From Bacteroidota bacterium (GTDB lineage: Bacteria; Bacteroidota; Bacteroidia; B-17B0; Aurantibacillaceae), in NCBI GenBank assembly GCA_021156365.1, contig JAJNDK010000002.1:496001-560000 (forward strand): a stretch of DNA of 64,000 nt, written 5' to 3'. Position 1 is the first letter of the stretch, and each line of letters opens with the position of its first letter. The translations under genes were made by a program, and so were the position numbers. Positions 11,014-18,685 of the stretch are shown in pieces. Below the pieces are notes generated by a model. It did no database searches. It was given only the letters and a program-made list of their open reading frames with translations, and was not told the DNA's origin.

Positions 11014-11613
11014 GCGCCACAGGCTGTGATGCATTCGCCACGAGCTGCAAATTTTTTTGGAGAGTCGCGGTGCAGTCACCGGAAGACTAAAACACATCGC
11101 CGGAAGCTATGATGTGCCCGCCACGAGCCGCGAATATTTTTGGAAAGCCACGATGTAATCTCGGAAGGACTATAATACGGCGCCACGAGCTGTGATGTAT
11201 TCACCAGGAGCCGTAAAGATTTTTGGAAAGCCGCGATGCAGTCACCGAAGGGCTAAAACACATCGCCGGAAGCTGTGATGTACCTGCCACAAGCTGCGAA
11301 TATTTTTGGAAAGCCGCGATGTAATCTCCGAAGGACTAAAACACATCGCCGGAAGCTATGATGTACCCACCACGAACTGTGATTTTTTTTGGAAAGCCAC
11401 GCTGTAATCTCCGAAGGACTAAAATGCAGCGCCACGAGCTGTGATGTATTCACCACGAGCCGTAAAGATTTTTGGAAAGCTGCGACGCATTCTCCGAAGG
11501 ACTAAAATATGGCGCCACGAGCTGTGATGTATTCACCACGAGCCGTGAATATTTTCGGAAAGCCGCGATGCATTCTCCGGAAGACCAAAGCACATCGCCA
11601 CGGCCGTGAATAG
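11014..11613. repeat. Non-coding tandem array of an 83-bp unit, seven copies plus a fragment
   Basis: Units begin at 11014, 11097, 11180, 11263, 11346, 11429 and 11512, exactly 83 bp apart, with a decayed eighth from 11595. Each carries (G/T)CGCCxxxAGCTxTGATG at its start, a central ATTTTTGGAAAGCC, and CCGAAGGACTAAAA near its end. Two start types occur, GCGCCACGAG and TCGCCGGAAG, in the order A B A B B A A. Since 83 is not a multiple of three, no single reading frame survives across units. The sense is therefore structural or regulatory, or a relic, rather than a repeat protein. The flanks 10980-11013 and 11614-11870 contain no gene; the latter shows only weak echoes of the unit. Confidence 0.9.
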
Positions 11614-11871
11614 ACCCTTCAGGAGCCATACCTGCTGAACAAGCCGACGGACATTACCAGGGATTTCAAAAAAATGACCACTTGCCGGATCTTTTCGACC
11701 ACCTGCAAAGCCGGGTCTGCCACTTGCTATTTTCAGGTCATCCGCACACAATATCCGGAAGCAGCTCTACGTTTTAAATACAGGAAACGATCTTTAAAAA
11801 AATACAAACGCATATTATAACGGTGCGTATAAACATGGTTCCCTTCGGCGCGCTTTGGGAATTGTGAAAGA

Positions 11872-11882
11872 GAAAGGAGGTG
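11872..11882 (+). promoter_or_regulatory. Strong Shine-Dalgarno site deciding the FN3-gene start
   Basis: AAAGGAGGTG is a near-perfect anti-16S complement, with the AGGAGG core 9 nt before ATG 11890. Genes in this window otherwise lack such sites, so this fixes the start and is itself unusual. Confidence 0.8.
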
Positions 11883-11889
11883 TTTGGAA

Positions 11890-12504
11890 ATGAGTGCAAG
11901 AATGAAATGTGCTCTCAAGCTGTCCGGTTTGACACCGGAGAGCAAAGTAACAAGAACACAGGGAATAAAGAACGACATGATGGGGAGCGGATACTTTCCG
12001 AACTCCCAGCTGCCGATAGGGTATACAGGAATGCAGACCCTGATCGACAATATGCAAAATGCCATCATTGCGTCCAATTCGGGAACGTCCGCCAGCATCG
12101 CTTATATGCATGAGCAGGAGCGAATACTGGTGACCGCTTTTAACCTGGTAAAGGCTCATGTAGAATTCATAGCCAATACCAGTCCGAACCCTGAGACCAT
12201 TATCACTGCAGCCGGTTTCACTGTCTCCCAGAGCGGTGGCGCCAGCCCGGTGACAGAGCTTACACTGACTGCCACCGGCAACAGTGAAGTAGTAGTAAAA
12301 GTACCGAGACACACAGACGAAAAGGCTTTTGTATATGAGAAAAGCACCGACGGGGAAACCTTCACGAAAGTGATCGCTACCTCGCTAAGCAGTATCTCTA
12401 TCACAGGCCATGCACCCGGCTCCACTATCTATGTGCGTTATTACGCCATAGGCAAAAATGGTGAAAGCCCGGTAAGTGCAATAAAAAGCGTTATGGTGAT
12501 CTAA
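11890..12504 (+). CDS. Fibronectin type III domain protein, no signal peptide
   Basis: 204 residues from ATG 11890 (MSARMKCALKLSG). Residues about 40-110 are helical (LIDNMQNAIIASNSGTSA ... ERILVTAFNLVKAHVEFIA). From about residue 120 an FN3-like beta-sandwich follows (ELTLTATGNSEVVVKVPR ... AFVYEKSTDGETF ... GSTIYVRYYAIGKNGESP). This helical-plus-FN3 layout recurs in small Bacteroidota proteins of unknown role. There is no export signal, so it is probably cytoplasmic or carried by another route. It lies between the 83-bp array and a terminator, and has the strongest ribosome-binding site in the window, suggesting high expression. Confidence 0.75.
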   Translation: MSARMKCALKLSGLTPESKVTRTQGIKNDMMGSGYFPNSQLPIGYTGMQTLIDNMQNAIIASNSGTSASIAYMHEQERILVTAFNLVKAHVEFIANTSPNPETIITAAGFTVSQSGGASPVTELTLTATGNSEVVVKVPRHTDEKAFVYEKSTDGETFTKVIATSLSSISITGHAPGSTIYVRYYAIGKNGESPVSAIKSVMVI

Positions 12505-12621: not shown

Positions 12622-14601
12622 CTATTCTTTTATGATCTTTACTCTTTCTTTCCCTTCAGCCGCCTCTATTTCCAGGATGTACATGCCGGCGCTGAGATCG
12701 CTCACCGGTACGTTGATTGTTTCCTGTGCATGTTTGATCGCCAGCTTTTTCAGCACTTGCCCGGTGATGGAATAGATGCTGATGGTGCAGCTTTCTTTGG
12801 CCGCATCTTTCAGCTCGATTGTGAGCTGGTTAGTGGCGGGGTTGGGGTAGATCCTTCCAAATAAATTTTTTCCTTCTTCCTTCAATGAATTTTGCCAGGG
12901 TGGAGGATCGATAAACACACAATCGTAAGGATCAAATAAACTAAAAGGAATATAAGGCAGCCAGTTAATTTCGGAGTCGTTGAAATCAAGATCGTTTACA
13001 TAATAGAGGTCTGTTTTCAAAGTAGAATTAAAATTCCCGCTTACATTCTGGCTGGCGTATACAACAGGAATAGTATAGTTTCCGCTATTCTCTATCACAA
13101 CATCCGAGGCATTCATCCACCAGAAACCATTCGCATTGGTTTCGTTCTTCGAAATTTCTTTTACTCCGCTGTATTTTGCATTCGTTGCATTATACCCTAC
13201 TGCTTTCAGTGAAGGTTTGTCATTTGGGATCAAAGGATTGATGGTAGCATCCTGCTCTTTCGTGTCGATCCAGGAAAAAAACAAGCGGGTGCCATCTCCG
13301 TTCCGGCTAACCTGGATCCGGTTACCATAGGCAAGGCCACTGCCAGCCGGAAATCTCCAGGGATTGTAGCTGTCCGAGGCAGGCATCCACCTCGAATGCA
13401 ACTCATCCAGGATCCTTTTGGACCAGGTACCATTTCCATCCGTAGTTAAATGAATAACATACGGTACGTTACAGTGTCCGGTACTATCATATCCAAAAGT
13501 GCCCAAAAAACTCAATGAATCCCTGTGGTAAGAATAGGGAGGTGTACAGGATGTAATATAATGCAGTATTCCGTTTGCGTCCACAGTAATGTCGCCTCCG
13601 AATATATTTGTAAAAGACGGGTAAGTTTGCCAAAAGGCCGGATGGTGCAGATTTGCAAACACAACATAACCAAATGAACCGCCTGTCAGCCAATCGTAAT
13701 TCATGTTCACCCGGTTCCAGTTTGCTCCTCCATCTATGGTTTTCCATACCATTGGTGTGTAAGTCATTTTCCCATACGGCGTCGTATCCAATGAATCTAC
13801 GCCAGTAACTAACAGATATCCCACCATGGGATTGCCAGGTTGAAAAGCGATTTGCGGATTACCTATATAAGGGTCGTTACTATGGTTTAATACCCACAGA
13901 TTTTTAAAAACCGTATCCACCGTCCAGCTAAATCCCGAACCGGTATAGCTGCCTTTTATTAATGCGAAGCCGGTATTGGTAAAATTGCTCTTTATTGTTT
14001 GAGCACAGATCCAGATCGTATTGCCGGCCACTGCGGGAGAAGCCGGTATCATATACACACTATCCGTTCCATTCAATCCCGTCATAGGGAACCACTGCTG
14101 ATCGTTTGTTGTTTGGGTGTGCATACCCGGGATTGTGCTCAATGCTGCATTCAATTGTGCACTTCCGAAATACATGCCGTCCCAACCAGTTGTACTGCTT
14201 GTTGATGAAGTAGTAGGCCCGAAGCCCACTGCATATGCATTGCTTGGTTGTGTATTACCAGGCGGATTAAAGATCGTCCCACCCGGGTATCTCGGCCAAT
14301 GAACATCGTTCTGGTAATAACACAGGGAATCCCAGGTGGCTCCTCCGTCCGAACTGTATTTGGTAACGAGGTAGCCGGTGGCCCCGGCCGGGTTCGGTGT
14401 AAAAGGAAAAGCGCTGTTGGGCCAGGCATTGGTAAGGCGCTGCGTAAAAGCCAACACATTCAGGTCGCTGTTATAAGTAAGGCAATTGTTAGCCGTATAC
14501 AGGAAACCGTAAGCATTCTTTGCATCGGAGAATTTCTGGTATTGGGCTTTGGTGGTAAAATACAAGACCAGTATAAAAAATAGGAGTAGGTGTTTTTTCA
14601 T
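12622..14601 (-). CDS. T9SS-secreted BNR/Asp-box repeat protein
   Basis: 659 residues from ATG 14601, where MKKHLLLFFILVLYFTTKA forms a signal peptide cut before QYQKF. Two Asp-box motifs (S/T-x-D-x-G-x-x-W) are visible, SSDGGATW and TIDGGANW, and mark a sialidase-like beta-propeller. The final 75 residues are a type A T9SS sorting domain: IYPNPATNQLTIEL, then SIYSITGQVLKKL, LSAGMYILEIE and a Lys-rich end. The protein should cross the outer membrane by T9SS and be released or anchored to lipopolysaccharide. No enzymatic residues can be assigned. The gene is bracketed by the two 47-bp terminator-like elements. Confidence 0.85.
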   Translation of the reverse strand: MKKHLLLFFILVLYFTTKAQYQKFSDAKNAYGFLYTANNCLTYNSDLNVLAFTQRLTNAWPNSAFPFTPNPAGATGYLVTKYSSDGGATWDSLCYYQNDVHWPRYPGGTIFNPPGNTQPSNAYAVGFGPTTSSTSSTTGWDGMYFGSAQLNAALSTIPGMHTQTTNDQQWFPMTGLNGTDSVYMIPASPAVAGNTIWICAQTIKSNFTNTGFALIKGSYTGSGFSWTVDTVFKNLWVLNHSNDPYIGNPQIAFQPGNPMVGYLLVTGVDSLDTTPYGKMTYTPMVWKTIDGGANWNRVNMNYDWLTGGSFGYVVFANLHHPAFWQTYPSFTNIFGGDITVDANGILHYITSCTPPYSYHRDSLSFLGTFGYDSTGHCNVPYVIHLTTDGNGTWSKRILDELHSRWMPASDSYNPWRFPAGSGLAYGNRIQVSRNGDGTRLFFSWIDTKEQDATINPLIPNDKPSLKAVGYNATNAKYSGVKEISKNETNANGFWWMNASDVVIENSGNYTIPVVYASQNVSGNFNSTLKTDLYYVNDLDFNDSEINWLPYIPFSLFDPYDCVFIDPPPWQNSLKEEGKNLFGRIYPNPATNQLTIELKDAAKESCTISIYSITGQVLKKLAIKHAQETINVPVSDLSAGMYILEIEAAEGKERVKIIKE

Positions 14602-14728
14602 GATATTGTTTTTAAAATGATCCTTCATAAAAATAGCTGAATCCTGATAAGTAAACAAATCCTGTCTCATAAGTGGTCGGTTTTTGCCAATAAGTGGTTT
14701 AAATTGGGGTATTGTGGGCGTTTTCGAT

Positions 14729-14775
14729 AAAACGGAGTTCTTATGAGGCGTTGGGAGGCTTCGTTTTTTGTTTTT
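14729..14775. terminator. Terminator-like 47-bp element, copy 2
   Basis: This has the same layout as 12548-12594 (AAAACGGAG, GAGGCGTTGGGAGG, T6-G-T5) with three substitutions. One of them, CTTCG for CTCCG, turns a stem G-C pair into G-T. It lies immediately downstream of the TOPRIM-like gene and would end the restriction-like operon. Confidence 0.75.
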
Positions 14776-14789
14776 GAGAACCTACATTA

Positions 14790-15464
14790 TTATTGTTTTG
14801 ATGCCTCTAGTTTTGGAATTACCTTTGTGCAAACTTCTTCATAAAACTCCATCAAACTACAATTAAAGCTCAAATATTTATTCTTAGTTATTTCTTTGGG
14901 TTTAGACAATGGTTTACTAAGAGAATTATAAGTAGAATAATCCGATGTCGACTTTGTCCCGCTTTTTTTCAAAATATAACTTAGCTTTTCCTTGGGCTTT
15001 GCAGATTTAGTGGAATCGCTTTTATCAAATATTGTAAGTACCCAAGCATCTATCTCTTCTATGGCAATTGCATACAAAATTTGATTAGTAATGTCCGCAT
15101 CGAACCAAACATTTATTTTTTCAACAACGCGTTTTCTTAACTCTGAACAATAATTCTTCCCACTTTTACCAGGTCTACTTATTCCATATTCTTCCGCTTC
15201 AGCAGTATCAATATGAATCACTACAAAATCTTGATCTTCAACCGCTAGAAAGCCATCTATTAAGGTACGTTGTTCACATTCACTTTTTACTACAGACCAT
15301 GTACTCTTCGTTAAAGGATTATTCAACGCCTTGTCAGTTTCATCCATATTGTATATAGGACGCAAGGCTTGAATATCGCTCCTATCTATGCCCGTAGCAC
15401 CAATAATTACGTTTTCAATAACGGCTCTATCCGCATGTCCTTCTGAAATGACTCCGATTCTCAT
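14790..15464 (-). CDS. TOPRIM-like (DUF4276/OLD-nuclease-like) protein of the island
   Basis: 224 residues. The start MRIGVISEGHADRAVIE has the TOPRIM pattern of strand, catalytic-type Glu8 and Asp12. A second strand FVVIHIDTAEAEE supplies Asp86 and acidic residues at 89-92. IAIEEIDAWVLTIF resembles the E-x-W segment of DUF4276 proteins. TOPRIM folds cut or rejoin nucleic acid with metal ions, and similar proteins are the nuclease partners of OLD- and PARIS-type ATPases. It follows the ATPase gene with a single base between stop and start, so the two are translationally coupled. I infer that this is the nuclease effector. The exact family needs a profile search. Confidence 0.7.
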   Translation of the reverse strand: MRIGVISEGHADRAVIENVIIGATGIDRSDIQALRPIYNMDETDKALNNPLTKSTWSVVKSECEQRTLIDGFLAVEDQDFVVIHIDTAEAEEYGISRPGKSGKNYCSELRKRVVEKINVWFDADITNQILYAIAIEEIDAWVLTIFDKSDSTKSAKPKEKLSYILKKSGTKSTSDYSTYNSLSKPLSKPKEITKNKYLSFNCSLMEFYEEVCTKVIPKLEASKQ

Positions 15465-15465
15465 C

Positions 15466-17088
15466 TTAAAAGTTGTTAGGTACCGCCCCCAATTGCCCCT
15501 TTAACCACATTTCTGACAGTTTAAATTTCTTATCACTCAAATCACTTTTAAACTTAATCCGACGGGTTTTAGTTTGACCTTCAGAATTTCTATATACTTC
15601 AAAAAGTCTTTGTTCATCATCTAACAGGTTTAATCCATCGAGTACAGCTGGATTGTGTGTTGTAATTAGTACTTGCTTTTCCTTTTCTTTCGCTATTTTT
15701 ACCAATTCTGTCGTGAGAACCTGGCATAGACGAGGATTCAATGCAGTTTCAATATTGTCAATTGCCAATAAATTAGGCGTTTTATCACTAATGAACAAAG
15801 CCAGGTAGAATAATACATGCAAAATACCTTCATTTGAATTTTCAGCGGAAAAGGTATTGTTATCTTTTAACATATATTTATCCTTAAAATAAAGGTTAGA
15901 TGTGCTTCTTCCTGGTTTTAATCCAGTCAATTTATACTTATCATCCTTATCCGCAATAACTTCTTCCAACCATTCAAAAACCTTCAAACAATCATTTAAT
16001 CTTGCGCGCTCAGATTTGCTCAGATTTGCTATCAATAGATCAAGTCCTTCTCCATTAATACCCAATGGCGTTTTTTTACTCTCAGATGAAATTCCTCTCA
16101 GAGCTTTCGTGTTTAAATCGAAAATTGCATATTCTGAAAGCAAATGGTCATAAAGACCCTCAGGTTTAATTCCCTTGTCTTTCAACTTTAACAATTCATC
16201 ATGAAGTTCGGTTGTTGACTTTTTACTATTGTCTTCGAAAAGTTTAAAAACCATCCTCAACAGCTTCTCAACACTCATTTGAGAATCCGCAAGATTAACC
16301 CATCTGCTATAAATATCATTTGACTCAACCGGCGAAAGTAAAAAATCATACTCTTCGACTTCTTTGTTAGTATTTTCAAAAACCAAACTAATATCAATAG
16401 TACTATTTTGCTTGGTCCCTGAAAAAGAACTCAATATCAAATCAGGGCGTGCAGTACGAACACCCCTACTATATAAACCATCCAATGATAAATCATTCTC
16501 TACCTCTGCTCCAACAGTCGCAAGGGCTTCTAAGATATTAGTCTTACCGCACCCATTTGCACCAATAAAAACATTGAATCTTCCTAATTCGATCTTGTCG
16601 TCAAATATAGATTTATAGCTATTTATTGCAATTTTCTTTACTAATGCCATCGGACCCTTGCCTTTTGGCATTTCGTTTAGATATTTGCTGTAATTTTCGC
16701 TTGCCAAATCCCACTCATCAGTATTATACTTCTTTATTGTATTGAGTGCCAATAAAGATATAGCATAATGCGTGTTTGGACTGTTCTTTGGTAAATCTGG
16801 GTTGTCTGGGTTCTTATCTATAATTCCAAATTCAACGAATGGATTAATGGCCTCTTTTCTCAAGGATTCCCTTGTTCCAGACTTATAGACAACATTATAA
16901 TGGTCTTTCATAAATGGCATTATTTCCGTAGAAAGAACCATGCTCCTTCTTTCCGCATCTTGCCAATCATCAGCCGGTTTTATATTACAAAGGGCGAGTA
17001 AAGTTAATGCTGCGGCCTGATTTTGCTGTGCTGTAGGCAGTTTGAAGCTCTTTAGAATTTCTTGTGCTTGTTCTATTTTATTGCTCAT
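15466..17088 (-). CDS. ATPase fused to a BsuBI/PstI-type restriction-enzyme N-terminal domain
   Basis: 540 residues from ATG 17088; ten upstream codons are hydrophobic and unlikely. Residues 1-130 (LKSFKLPTAQQNQAAALTLL, GTRESLRKEAINPFVEFGII, NPDNPDLPKNSPNTHYAI, YNTDEWD) carry the pattern of the winged-helix N-terminal domain of BsuBI/PstI endonucleases. Instead of the endonuclease core there is an SMC/OLD-like (AAA_15/21) ATPase: Walker A GANGCGKT at 176-183, signature-like SNEG at 418-421, Walker B LLAIDNIE at 440-447, and H-loop His478 in TTHNP. The usual Glu after the Walker B Asp is Asn445. It overlaps the methyltransferase stop by 11 bp and abuts the TOPRIM gene. I infer a sequence-reading motor or switch that controls the TOPRIM protein. 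Confidence 0.8.
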   Translation of the reverse strand: MSNKIEQAQEILKSFKLPTAQQNQAAALTLLALCNIKPADDWQDAERRSMVLSTEIMPFMKDHYNVVYKSGTRESLRKEAINPFVEFGIIDKNPDNPDLPKNSPNTHYAISLLALNTIKKYNTDEWDLASENYSKYLNEMPKGKGPMALVKKIAINSYKSIFDDKIELGRFNVFIGANGCGKTNILEALATVGAEVENDLSLDGLYSRGVRTARPDLILSSFSGTKQNSTIDISLVFENTNKEVEEYDFLLSPVESNDIYSRWVNLADSQMSVEKLLRMVFKLFEDNSKKSTTELHDELLKLKDKGIKPEGLYDHLLSEYAIFDLNTKALRGISSESKKTPLGINGEGLDLLIANLSKSERARLNDCLKVFEWLEEVIADKDDKYKLTGLKPGRSTSNLYFKDKYMLKDNNTFSAENSNEGILHVLFYLALFISDKTPNLLAIDNIETALNPRLCQVLTTELVKIAKEKEKQVLITTHNPAVLDGLNLLDDEQRLFEVYRNSEGQTKTRRIKFKSDLSDKKFKLSEMWLKGQLGAVPNNF

Positions 17089-18685
17089 AATTATCAAATA
17101 GATTAGTATGTACATCAAAAACCTCAGACACTAACGCATCTATATTTAAACTTTTAAAGTCCCTGTTTTCCATTTTTCGCCCCAAGATGCTAATTAAAGA
17201 AAATGAAGGTAGCGGAAAATCCCTCAATTCGGTAGCACTTACGTTAATATTTCCATTAAAGGTTCTAAAATACAAATCGAACAAACGGCTATTTAATAAA
17301 GCTGCTATCCCAATAGTTTCATGGTCTTTTAATTCCTCAGTTTTATGGTAAATATAATTTAAGTGATTCTCAACTCCTAATGCTGAAACCTCTGGATTCA
17401 TTTTTTTAAAATATGGGGCAGCCACTAAGCGTTGATTGTCTTCTTTAGAACTGAATCGTCGCAATAAAACATAATTACGATTTGGCACAAGTCTCTTTAC
17501 GGAGTCTTCATTTTTAATTATATACTGTCCTTTCTTTTTACCATTATAACCCTTTTCTTTGGGCCAGGTTACTCGCATAGGTTCAACATTGTGCAGCCAC
17601 ATTAGCGGTACAGTCTTGTTTGTCTTCCTAATCTCTATTAATTCTGCGCTCCTAAAATCCACAACCGGTCCGGTGGATATCTCTATATCATATGATTTTA
17701 AAGAACCGGTCCATGATTTAAAAATTCTAATTATTCTTTCATCCGTTTCTGTTAAAGGAAGGTGTAAAATTTTTTGCAATGAGTTCAGATTTACCAAATT
17801 CTTCCACTCATGTTGTTTTACGTTTCTATTCTGTATGTCTTCCATTCCAGAAGATGATGATATTAATACAATATTCTCCTCCTTTTTGTGTTGGCTTTTT
17901 TTATTCGCTACAATAATAATGTTCTCCTGCAACACTTTATCGCGTTTAAAACTCTCTTTCCTAGAATTAAAAAGGTGAATAGTTTTAATGTCTACCTTTG
18001 AAAAAAATATCTCCCTAAACAATCTGAAATAATTACCTGAGCAAAAACTTCTGGGTGTAATGAAGATTAATTGTCCATTTTCCCCTAATAGTTTAGCAGC
18101 GATCAACATAAAAATGCTATATATATTTGATTGCCCATAAATCACTGATTTTGCAGCAATTGCTCTTTCGTCATTTTTCGGTAATTTGAAATAAGGAGGA
18201 TTGGAAATAATAATGTCATAGCTTTCCTGAACCTCGTGTTGATCTGCCAGTACATGAGAATTATGTAAGATAAAATCGTTTTTGCATAAAAAGAAAGTAA
18301 AATCTATTCCTTTTTCCTTGAGCCAATGACTTAAATATGTATAACAATTTTCTGCTATTGGCAGAAGATTAACATCCGTTTCAAATGCAACTAATTCAAT
18401 TACTTTTACTTGTTTAATTTTAACTAGTTCCTCCGCTAAGGCAGCAGATAAAATTCCAATTCCACAACCTGGATCTAAAATTTTAATCCTTTTCTTTTTA
18501 ATGTCTTGAAAACTTGACATAAATTGAGCAATATCTACAGGTGTAAAGAACTGGCCTAACGTCCTTTTATGTTCTCCCGTTACTGCTGCTGCATATTTAA
18601 CCCCTAACCTATCTGCATATGAAGAAGGGCCTTCCGTCAAATCAATTTTTCGGGATCTCTGCTTTTTTTCCTTATTCTTTATCAC
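17078..18685 (-). CDS. N6-adenine DNA methyltransferase, M.PstI/Eco57I-like
   Basis: 535 residues from GTG 18685; TTG 18691 is the alternative, and no ATG is available near the start. Motif X is GQFFTP (44-49), the AdoMet-binding motif I is DPGCGIG (71-77), and the catalytic motif IV is NPPY (162-165), diagnostic of N6-adenine methylation. A C-terminal region of about 250 residues with NVSATELRDFPLP near its end resembles target-recognition segments of Eco57I-class enzymes. M.PstI and M.BsuBI belong to this class and protect CTGCAG; the recognition site here is unknown. It is the first gene of the three-gene operon and overlaps the ATPase gene by 11 bp. The gene is clearly AT-rich. Confidence 0.9.
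   Translation of the reverse strand: MIKNKEKKQRSRKIDLTEGPSSYADRLGVKYAAAVTGEHKRTLGQFFTPVDIAQFMSSFQDIKKKRIKILDPGCGIGILSAALAEELVKIKQVKVIELVAFETDVNLLPIAENCYTYLSHWLKEKGIDFTFFLCKNDFILHNSHVLADQHEVQESYDIIISNPPYFKLPKNDERAIAAKSVIYGQSNIYSIFMLIAAKLLGENGQLIFITPRSFCSGNYFRLFREIFFSKVDIKTIHLFNSRKESFKRDKVLQENIIIVANKKSQHKKEENIVLISSSSGMEDIQNRNVKQHEWKNLVNLNSLQKILHLPLTETDERIIRIFKSWTGSLKSYDIEISTGPVVDFRSAELIEIRKTNKTVPLMWLHNVEPMRVTWPKEKGYNGKKKGQYIIKNEDSVKRLVPNRNYVLLRRFSSKEDNQRLVAAPYFKKMNPEVSALGVENHLNYIYHKTEELKDHETIGIAALLNSRLFDLYFRTFNGNINVSATELRDFPLPSFSLISILGRKMENRDFKSLNIDALVSEVFDVHTNLFDNYEQ

Follow-up and report, generated by a model that had tools for sequence, protein, structure and literature searches.

We find that genes for small proteins of three families in the Bacteroidota are adjoined by tandem DNA arrays built on a repeat quantum of 20-21 bp, which is two turns of the double helix, and that the period of these arrays is almost always a multiple of that quantum. 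The window, the 64,000-nucleotide stretch of Bacteroidota DNA analysed here, contains one example of this wider pattern, a real, non-coding array with an 83-bp unit. Intergenic satellites in bacteria are usually treated as noise; in these arrays it is the period, and not the sequence, that persists, and its persistence across genera and three protein families makes them a natural experiment on the reading of helical phase in a bacterial chromosome. A search of open-access PMC text found no description of such arrays.

Tandem Repeats Finder reports the window array at 11015-11601 with a period of 83 bp, 7.1 copies, 0% indels and a score of 628. Cut in register from 11015, the array gives seven units (11015-11595) that differ by substitutions only, with no indels, and whose start variants CGCCAC (A) and CGCCGG (B) follow one another in the order A B A B B A A; the exact period and the order of variants are as the original prediction described them. 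Pairwise identity among the seven units was estimated there by eye as 75-95% and computes to 69-87%, which leaves the likeness of the repeats standing and corrects the range. The self-match of the array is 0.78 at lag 83, and when the window was sampled every 100 bp at lags of 15-130 no other 587-bp stretch exceeded 0.36. Several stops close each of the six frames across the array, in agreement with its description as non-coding. The original prediction had attached significance to a length of 83 bp because it breaks the reading frame; what matters about that length is instead that it is 4 x 20.75 bp, and a weak 21-bp sub-period that was not described before lies inside the units (lag-21 self-match 0.38). 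A CRISPR array was considered and rejected, the substitutions being spread over the whole 83-bp unit with no class of unique spacers in the unit alignment. The array DNA occurs only once in its own genome and is absent from 59 relatives, so comparison of the DNA sequence leads nowhere. Coordinates of the array and of the features downstream are collected in the table.

Features of the window locus
Feature	Position	Strand	Description
Non-coding tandem array	about 11014-11601	.	Seven 83-bp units without indels; 83 = 4 x 20.75
Four boxes at 21-bp steps	11657-11725	+	CCAGGG 11657, CCACTT 11678, CCACCT 11699, CCACTT 11720
Shine-Dalgarno site	11873-11882	+	AAAGGAGGTG, 7 nt before ATG 11890
Gene for 204-aa protein of a multi-copy family	11890-12504	+	Predicted N-terminal 3-helix bundle and C-terminal FN3-like beta sandwich

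The gene downstream of the array has paralogues in the same genome, and we call the family of its protein family 1. The AlphaFold2 model of the protein has a mean pLDDT of 87 and a pTM of 0.55. The N-terminal bundle spans about residues 16-107; modelled alone it reaches a pLDDT of 92, and a structure search with it gave no PDB match at E <= 0.001. The C-terminal half of the model matches FN3 structures (best E 1.8e-5, prob 1.00), and as modelled this domain has the FN3 fold. The window protein itself has no Pfam match; Pfam fn3 is matched by 10 of 26 family-1 members at E <= 0.1, the best at 6e-7. The proteins are near neutral, with a mean charge of +1.3 per 100 aa vs +0.7 in controls, and inspection revealed no obvious signal peptide in them. 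With respect to a mobile-element or phage origin, the window protein had no tblastn match in plasmid and phage collections, and a comparison by eye of 18 stretches showed no consistent neighbour. Strong Shine-Dalgarno sites are unusual in Bacteroidota, and the one pointed out downstream of the array is real. The perfect form AAAGGAGGTG is common to only 5 of 74 family-1 loci (L033, L005 and L013, window genome; L048 and L049, genome G027) and is therefore not part of the general pattern. The leaders of these five loci, which come from two genera, are almost the same.

A family-1 profile search gave 95 matches in 20 of the 61 genomes of the window's taxonomic family. We read 74 of these; the remaining 21 are for the most part weak matches, fragments, large proteins or matches at contig ends. 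Tandem Repeats Finder (score >= 100) detected an array no farther than 1 kb upstream or 0.6 kb downstream of the gene in 58 of the 74 loci, compared with 4.1% of random 1-kb windows drawn from twenty 20-kb control stretches. At the level of the class, family-1 proteins occur in 31 of 198 genomes and 13 of 121 genera; 129 matches lie outside the window's taxonomic family, and 47 of them, chosen by score and spread over genomes, were read. Over all genomes, an array with a self-match of at least 0.5, sought from 1 kb upstream to 0.7 kb downstream, is present at 104 of the 121 family-1 loci read. The tie between array and downstream gene that had been suspected at the window locus thus extends to most relatives of that gene. 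Six of the 17 loci that fail the self-match threshold have less than 300 bp of upstream DNA before the contig ends. Contigs end within 300 bp upstream of L033, L034, L045, L048, L195 and L225, as if arrays had broken the assemblies. In control DNA an array was found at 19 of 198 ORFs, 15 of the 19 with a period in the set described below; several of these ORFs share one array.

The best lag is an n-fold multiple of a value from 20 to 21 bp (n x [20,21]) in 101 of the 104 family-1 arrays, where the 23% of lags covered by this set is the chance expectation. All 65 arrays from the 74 loci within the window's taxonomic family belong to the set, as do 36 of the 39 from the 47 loci outside it; the three exceptions have lags of 110, 127 and 129. 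In 58 arrays that were measured the best lags are 21, 40-42, 60-63, 80-84, 100, 105 and 122-126, plus 12 and 76, of which lag 12 belongs to one 80-bp array and lag 76 to a separate 76-bp array. Dividing each lag by its nearest number of steps gives a step size of 21.0 in 33 of these arrays and 20.0 in 10, with the remainder between the two values, as mixtures of 20 and 21 would give. Over the same arrays the excess self-match averages 0.216 at lag 21 and 0.086 at lag 20, and it is close to zero at lags 19 and 22. Array lengths are mostly 150-650 bp. Arrays off the 20-21 quantum were also seen, with periods of 137 bp (L093, 10773-11181) and 76 bp (L021, downstream of the gene). Eleven of the 104 family-1 arrays lie downstream of the gene, nine of them in genomes G027 and G016. 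At L060, L061, L069, L072, L074, L075, L078, L080, L081 and L082, in these two genomes, the array begins about 0-150 bp after the stop codon.

Period and sequence behave differently in these arrays. Several paralogues of the window gene (L004 to L009 and L012, with L005 and L009 being one locus) have upstream arrays of quite different sequence, with periods of 21, 42, 63, 84, 105 or 126. Of the 4753 pairs among 98 arrays only 17 are similar in sequence (blastn over 30 bp, E <= 1e-3), and an array resembles that of the nearest protein in only 15 of 98 cases. At L041 and L052 the proteins are 84% identical and the arrays are unrelated, and a 20-bp step is common to both. The original prediction gave a special role to the AT-rich core of the unit; arrays at related genes keep the period and rarely the sequence, which lends no support to such a role. 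A search for a motif common to 123 arrays against Euler-shuffled units gave a best 6-mer of only z 3.7, and an earlier test on 32 arrays by column permutation gave 1.45 vs 1.28 +/- 0.03 under a null that destroys dinucleotides. No conserved contact block was found inside the monomers of 63 arrays, in which neighbouring columns resemble each other.

On a FastTree tree of 116 family-1 proteins, with arrays classed as exact 21 or less, the class changes 16 times, and nine of these changes are forced by well-supported branches. Shuffling the labels globally gave a mean of 25.9 changes, with 0 of 300 shuffles as low as 16, and shuffling within genomes gave a mean of 21.8, with 1 of 300 as low. Support is weak at many of the tree's inner branches (47 of 113 open). 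The 20-versus-21 class therefore clusters on the family-1 protein tree, and the link is partial. Among the 28 below-21 arrays that have no similar array at the nearest protein, that protein has the same class in 17 cases and a different class in 11, the window array among the latter. When related loci were aligned, with one genome per species, six of nine pairs had a gap measuring exactly 21 or 42 bp. The array of the best pair, L208/L231 (94% identical), contains a 42-bp gap and no other. Other gap sizes also occur, mostly in the more diverged of the nine pairs.

Following control-DNA arrays that have no family-1 gene beside them led to two further families, and the counts for each include its discovery locus. 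The founder of family 2 is a 317-aa protein with a C-terminal CarboxypepD_reg domain and 23 matches in one genome; 26 loci were read, and an array is present at 24 of the 25 that have upstream DNA, always at a multiple of 21. Family 3 consists of proteins of about 250 aa, three of which were tested and had no Pfam match. Of its 22 matches 19 were read, and 17 have an array, 16 of them in the n x [20,21] set and six of them downstream of the gene. Comparison of the founder proteins of families 2 and 3 with family 1 by hhalign showed no relation. No family neighbour was recognised at the orphan control arrays L087, L088 (at 1101), L089 and L097.

The DNA between array and gene also carries a 21-bp step. 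Pairs of CCA[ACG]TT boxes spaced at exactly 21 bp occur 29 times in this position in the 74 upstream regions, as opposed to 0 times on the other strand and twice in 800 kb of control DNA. A strict box pair at 20-22 or 41-43 bp is present in 20 of the 74 loci, and genome-wide the window's genome has 57 paired boxes vs 10 in the backward control. No clear enrichment of the CCA[ACG]TT box was seen within the arrays. A count of 6-mer spacings in the spacers likewise has its peak at 21, but array ends contaminate it and we place no weight on it. In the window the boxes read ACCACTTGC, ACCACCTGC and GCCACTTGC at 21-bp steps, the middle one with one departure from ACC[AT]CTTA[TC]. Published LytTR direct repeats are 9 bp long and usually separated by 12 bp, less often by 11 or 13 bp, as in the example ACCACTTAC-12 bp-ACCACTTGC, and most of them lie some 10 bp ahead of the -35 element; spacers of 12, 11 and 13 bp amount to steps of 21, 20 and 22 bp (PMC6193735). 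The format here, ACCACTTAT-12 bp-ACCACTT, is that published format (PMC6193735), and by their sequence the boxes at 11657-11725 constitute a putative LytTR direct-repeat operator (9-bp repeats, 11-13 bp spacers). A second LytTR-type operator by sequence, CCACTTATTGGCAAAAACCGACCACTT, lies at 14671-14697 on the minus strand at the start of an ORF at 12622-14670 that has no array; this ORF carries Por_Secre_tail, a type IX secretion sorting domain.

The sequence GTAAC-N17-CGTTATA occurs five times in the window's genome, each time between an array and a family-1 gene, and 0 times in the backward control. From its form this element may be a promoter, and its position would place the array upstream of the promoter at those loci. 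At L007, L008 and L012, by eye, 9 bp separate the end of the last box from GTAAC. The exact element was not enriched in three other genomes (3 matches vs 4 in the backward control), and a relaxed version is present in 12 of 140 family-1 and family-2 loci, none of them family 2, with 2 backward-control matches. No such element was recognised at the window locus, though the boxes are present there. That all five exact matches stand at family-1 genes might mean a dedicated sigma factor.

Two extensions of the LytTR observation did not hold up. Of 123 array units, 9 and 7 contain the LytTR consensus on the two strands vs 5.9 and 6.9 expected, which does not support a LytTR operator extended over the whole array. 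A single dedicated LytTR regulator per array was rejected, since LytTR counts do not track arrays: the window's genome (G000, 5.3 Mb) has 46 LytTR domains, G027 has 10 for its 23 family-1 and 23 family-2 matches, and G016 has five.

Contingency loci vary in copy number within a species and thereby change expression. The present arrays resemble such VNTR loci in having repeats near the gene start that differ by whole 21-bp steps, and differ from them in that the period is quantised across unrelated loci and families while the unit sequence is free; nor was a switch acting on frame or promoter spacing identified. The TAACTGA heptamer arrays of Beggiatoaceae, Cyanobacteria and some Bacteroidetes are also intergenic direct repeats with a patchy distribution and are often upstream of genes; they consist of one fixed 7-mer near start codons (PMC4679880), whereas the present arrays have no fixed sequence and a period of 20-21n. 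LytTR direct-repeat operators of the AgrA/ComE type share the ACCACTT-type boxes at 21-bp steps of 9 + 12 bp (PMC6193735). Known operators of this kind are pairs, whereas here roughly 8-31 further steps lie upstream, lacking the consensus and differing in sequence at almost every locus. RemA, which is related to LytTR and acts at eps and tap in Bacillus, is thought to wrap DNA that is periodic but poorly conserved and lies far upstream of promoters, a situation like that of the arrays; it protects 7-bp regions at 3-bp intervals, one turn per step, on a fragment of 107-159 bp (PMC8481266), whereas the arrays step by two turns and consist of genuine tandem repeats, most of them 150-650 bp long. 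By analogy, RemA suggests itself as the closest working model for the array.

Our preferred reading, which we put forward tentatively as a possibility, is that the array is a two-turn-phased upstream DNA platform read by a LytTR- or RemA-like protein of low specificity. The array would be no gene but a DNA element, a satellite with its tandem unit kept at two turns of B-DNA, and would lie upstream of the promoter of a gene for a small helical and beta-sandwich protein. A DNA-binding protein of low specificity, most likely with a LytTR or RemA-like fold, would assemble along the array with one contact per two turns, so that the contacts would fall on nearly the same face. The assembly would continue the register of the 21-bp-spaced boxes beside the promoter, and the upstream DNA, wrapped or bent in this way, would set expression. 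We infer that a protein binds the array, that it is LytTR-like and that transcription is affected. The suggestion in the original prediction that the periodic pattern could bind a protein is, in this phased form, the best reading available. The association at 104 of 121 loci, its recurrence in three families, the 21-bp box register with its LytTR format, the promoter-like element between array and gene at some loci and the clustering of the 20/21 class on the protein tree argue for the platform. Set against a simple platform are the 11 of 104 family-1 arrays and the six family-3 arrays that lie 3' of the gene, the LytTR counts that do not track arrays and the lack of a LytTR consensus above chance in the units. 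Boxes also stand at 14671-14697 before a gene without an array, strict boxes are found at only 20 of 74 loci and the relaxed promoter element at 12 of 140, the monomers show no contact-like block, and the link between the 20/21 class and the nearest protein is partial. With a helical pitch of 10.5 bp, moreover, arrays of pure 20-bp steps would not stay on one face but drift around the helix. A broader formulation, which we consider doubtful, is that small proteins from three or more unrelated families are each paired with a private satellite in which the period is selected and the sequence is free, the cell reading the geometry of the DNA (or an RNA copy in 20-21-nt steps) at a pitch set by the protein lineage. 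If a function of this kind is true, the arrays are a class of upstream element that is found by period and not by motif, and they offer a starting point for assigning functions to many small Bacteroidota proteins that lack annotation.

The main rival to the platform, also on the doubtful side, is that the arrays are neutral satellites that grow and shrink by whole-unit slippage or unequal exchange and are copied with the genes they flank, so that the period is inherited while point mutation erases the sequence; the 20-21 step would then reflect a mechanism of origin or an old founder and not a present function. Neutrality, if true, would mean that the period of a satellite can be inherited far longer than its sequence. 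The retention of period under sequence turnover (17 of 4753 pairs similar) is what this predicts, the 21- or 42-bp gaps between related arrays suit it, some control arrays share the quantum with no recognised family beside them, and near-neutral proteins need not touch DNA. It accounts poorly for a class that changes 16 times, nine of them forced, and yet leaves 101 of 104 periods within 20-21, for three unrelated protein families that carry arrays far above background, and for boxes beside the gene that keep the same 21-bp step. Slippage is given a purpose if the array is instead an adjustable spacer whose copy number tunes expression, as at contingency loci, and whose two-turn units preserve helical phase and thus face, an explanation that we regard as improbable. 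The exact 21- or 42-bp gaps in six of nine pairs, with the 42-bp gap standing alone in the L208/L231 array, and the position of the array upstream of the promoter-like element at several loci would follow from it. Such a spacer would also require a conserved element upstream of the arrays. Odd numbers of turns (about 31, 52, 73 or 94 bp) should serve such a spacer as well, yet are not among the best lags of the 58 arrays, one separate 76-bp array excepted; arrays can be 3' of the gene, and the more diverged pairs have gaps of other sizes.

Readings that place the function in RNA or in the neighbouring protein fare less well than the platform. Transcription of the array, as an RNA scaffold or a source of units of about 20 nt, is quite improbable, and an RNA array at the window locus in particular, as the original prediction had allowed, is not supported, since folding there is not beyond chance (z 0.09 and -1.07; +1.5 and +0.6; under a stricter null -0.4 and -1.5). 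Across 58 arrays and both strands early nulls gave a mean z of about -2.5; the strictest null, a shuffled consensus unit tandemly repeated so as to keep both the repeats and the dinucleotides, leaves slightly better folding than chance, with a mean z of -1.10 over 56 arrays and both strands and with 12 and 14 of the 56 at p <= 0.05 on the two strands. We have not built on this signal, because z shrank from -2.5 to -1.1 as the null became stricter. Folding is strong for four G027 arrays that lie 3' of the gene and for some 5' arrays, those at L049 and L044 among them; the 3' arrays at L075, L080, L081 and L082 fold better than chance on both strands. There is no strand bias in folding and no GC skew, and AT skew is a small 0.069. 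Dyad symmetry of the units is at chance (2 of 56 at p < 0.05), an Rfam search of the window found only two tRNAs and nothing at the array, and at some loci the promoter-like element lies between array and gene, which also weighs against an RNA reading. It is unlikely, too, that the neighbouring protein binds its own array, as DNA or RNA, in the manner of a track or an autoregulator. Such binding would fit the association with three families, the tolerance of 5' and 3' positions and the clustering of the 20/21 class on the protein tree, also within genomes. The proteins are near neutral, however, no known structure matches the N-terminal bundle at E <= 0.001, the FN3-like C-terminal domain suggests contacts with proteins, and three families with no detected relation would have to converge. 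Least probable, to the point of being hardly credible, is a decayed coding repeat of a heptad peptide, or an assembly artefact. Twenty-one bp is seven codons, and an open frame of more than 250 nt is present in 57 of 96 arrays with a period divisible by 3, compared with 4 of 27 with a frame-breaking period; a stop-free repeat gives such frames by itself. We rejected the coding repeat, as periods of 20, 40, 41, 61, 62, 80, 82 and 83 break the frame and still keep their length, and as all frames of the window array are closed. Against an artefact stand the divergence of the window units, which reaches 31%, and the presence of the pattern in many assemblies.

Elsewhere in the window, a 550-aa protein with BsuBI/PstI restriction-endonuclease HTH and AAA_21 ATPase domains is encoded at 14790-17118 on the minus strand with a 224-aa partner that has no Pfam match, possibly as a defence pair, and GC content is 33-38% over 14500-15499. 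Large tandem repeats of 231 and 234 bp, both multiples of three, occupy 10-1003 and perhaps belong to a coding repeat protein at the window edge.
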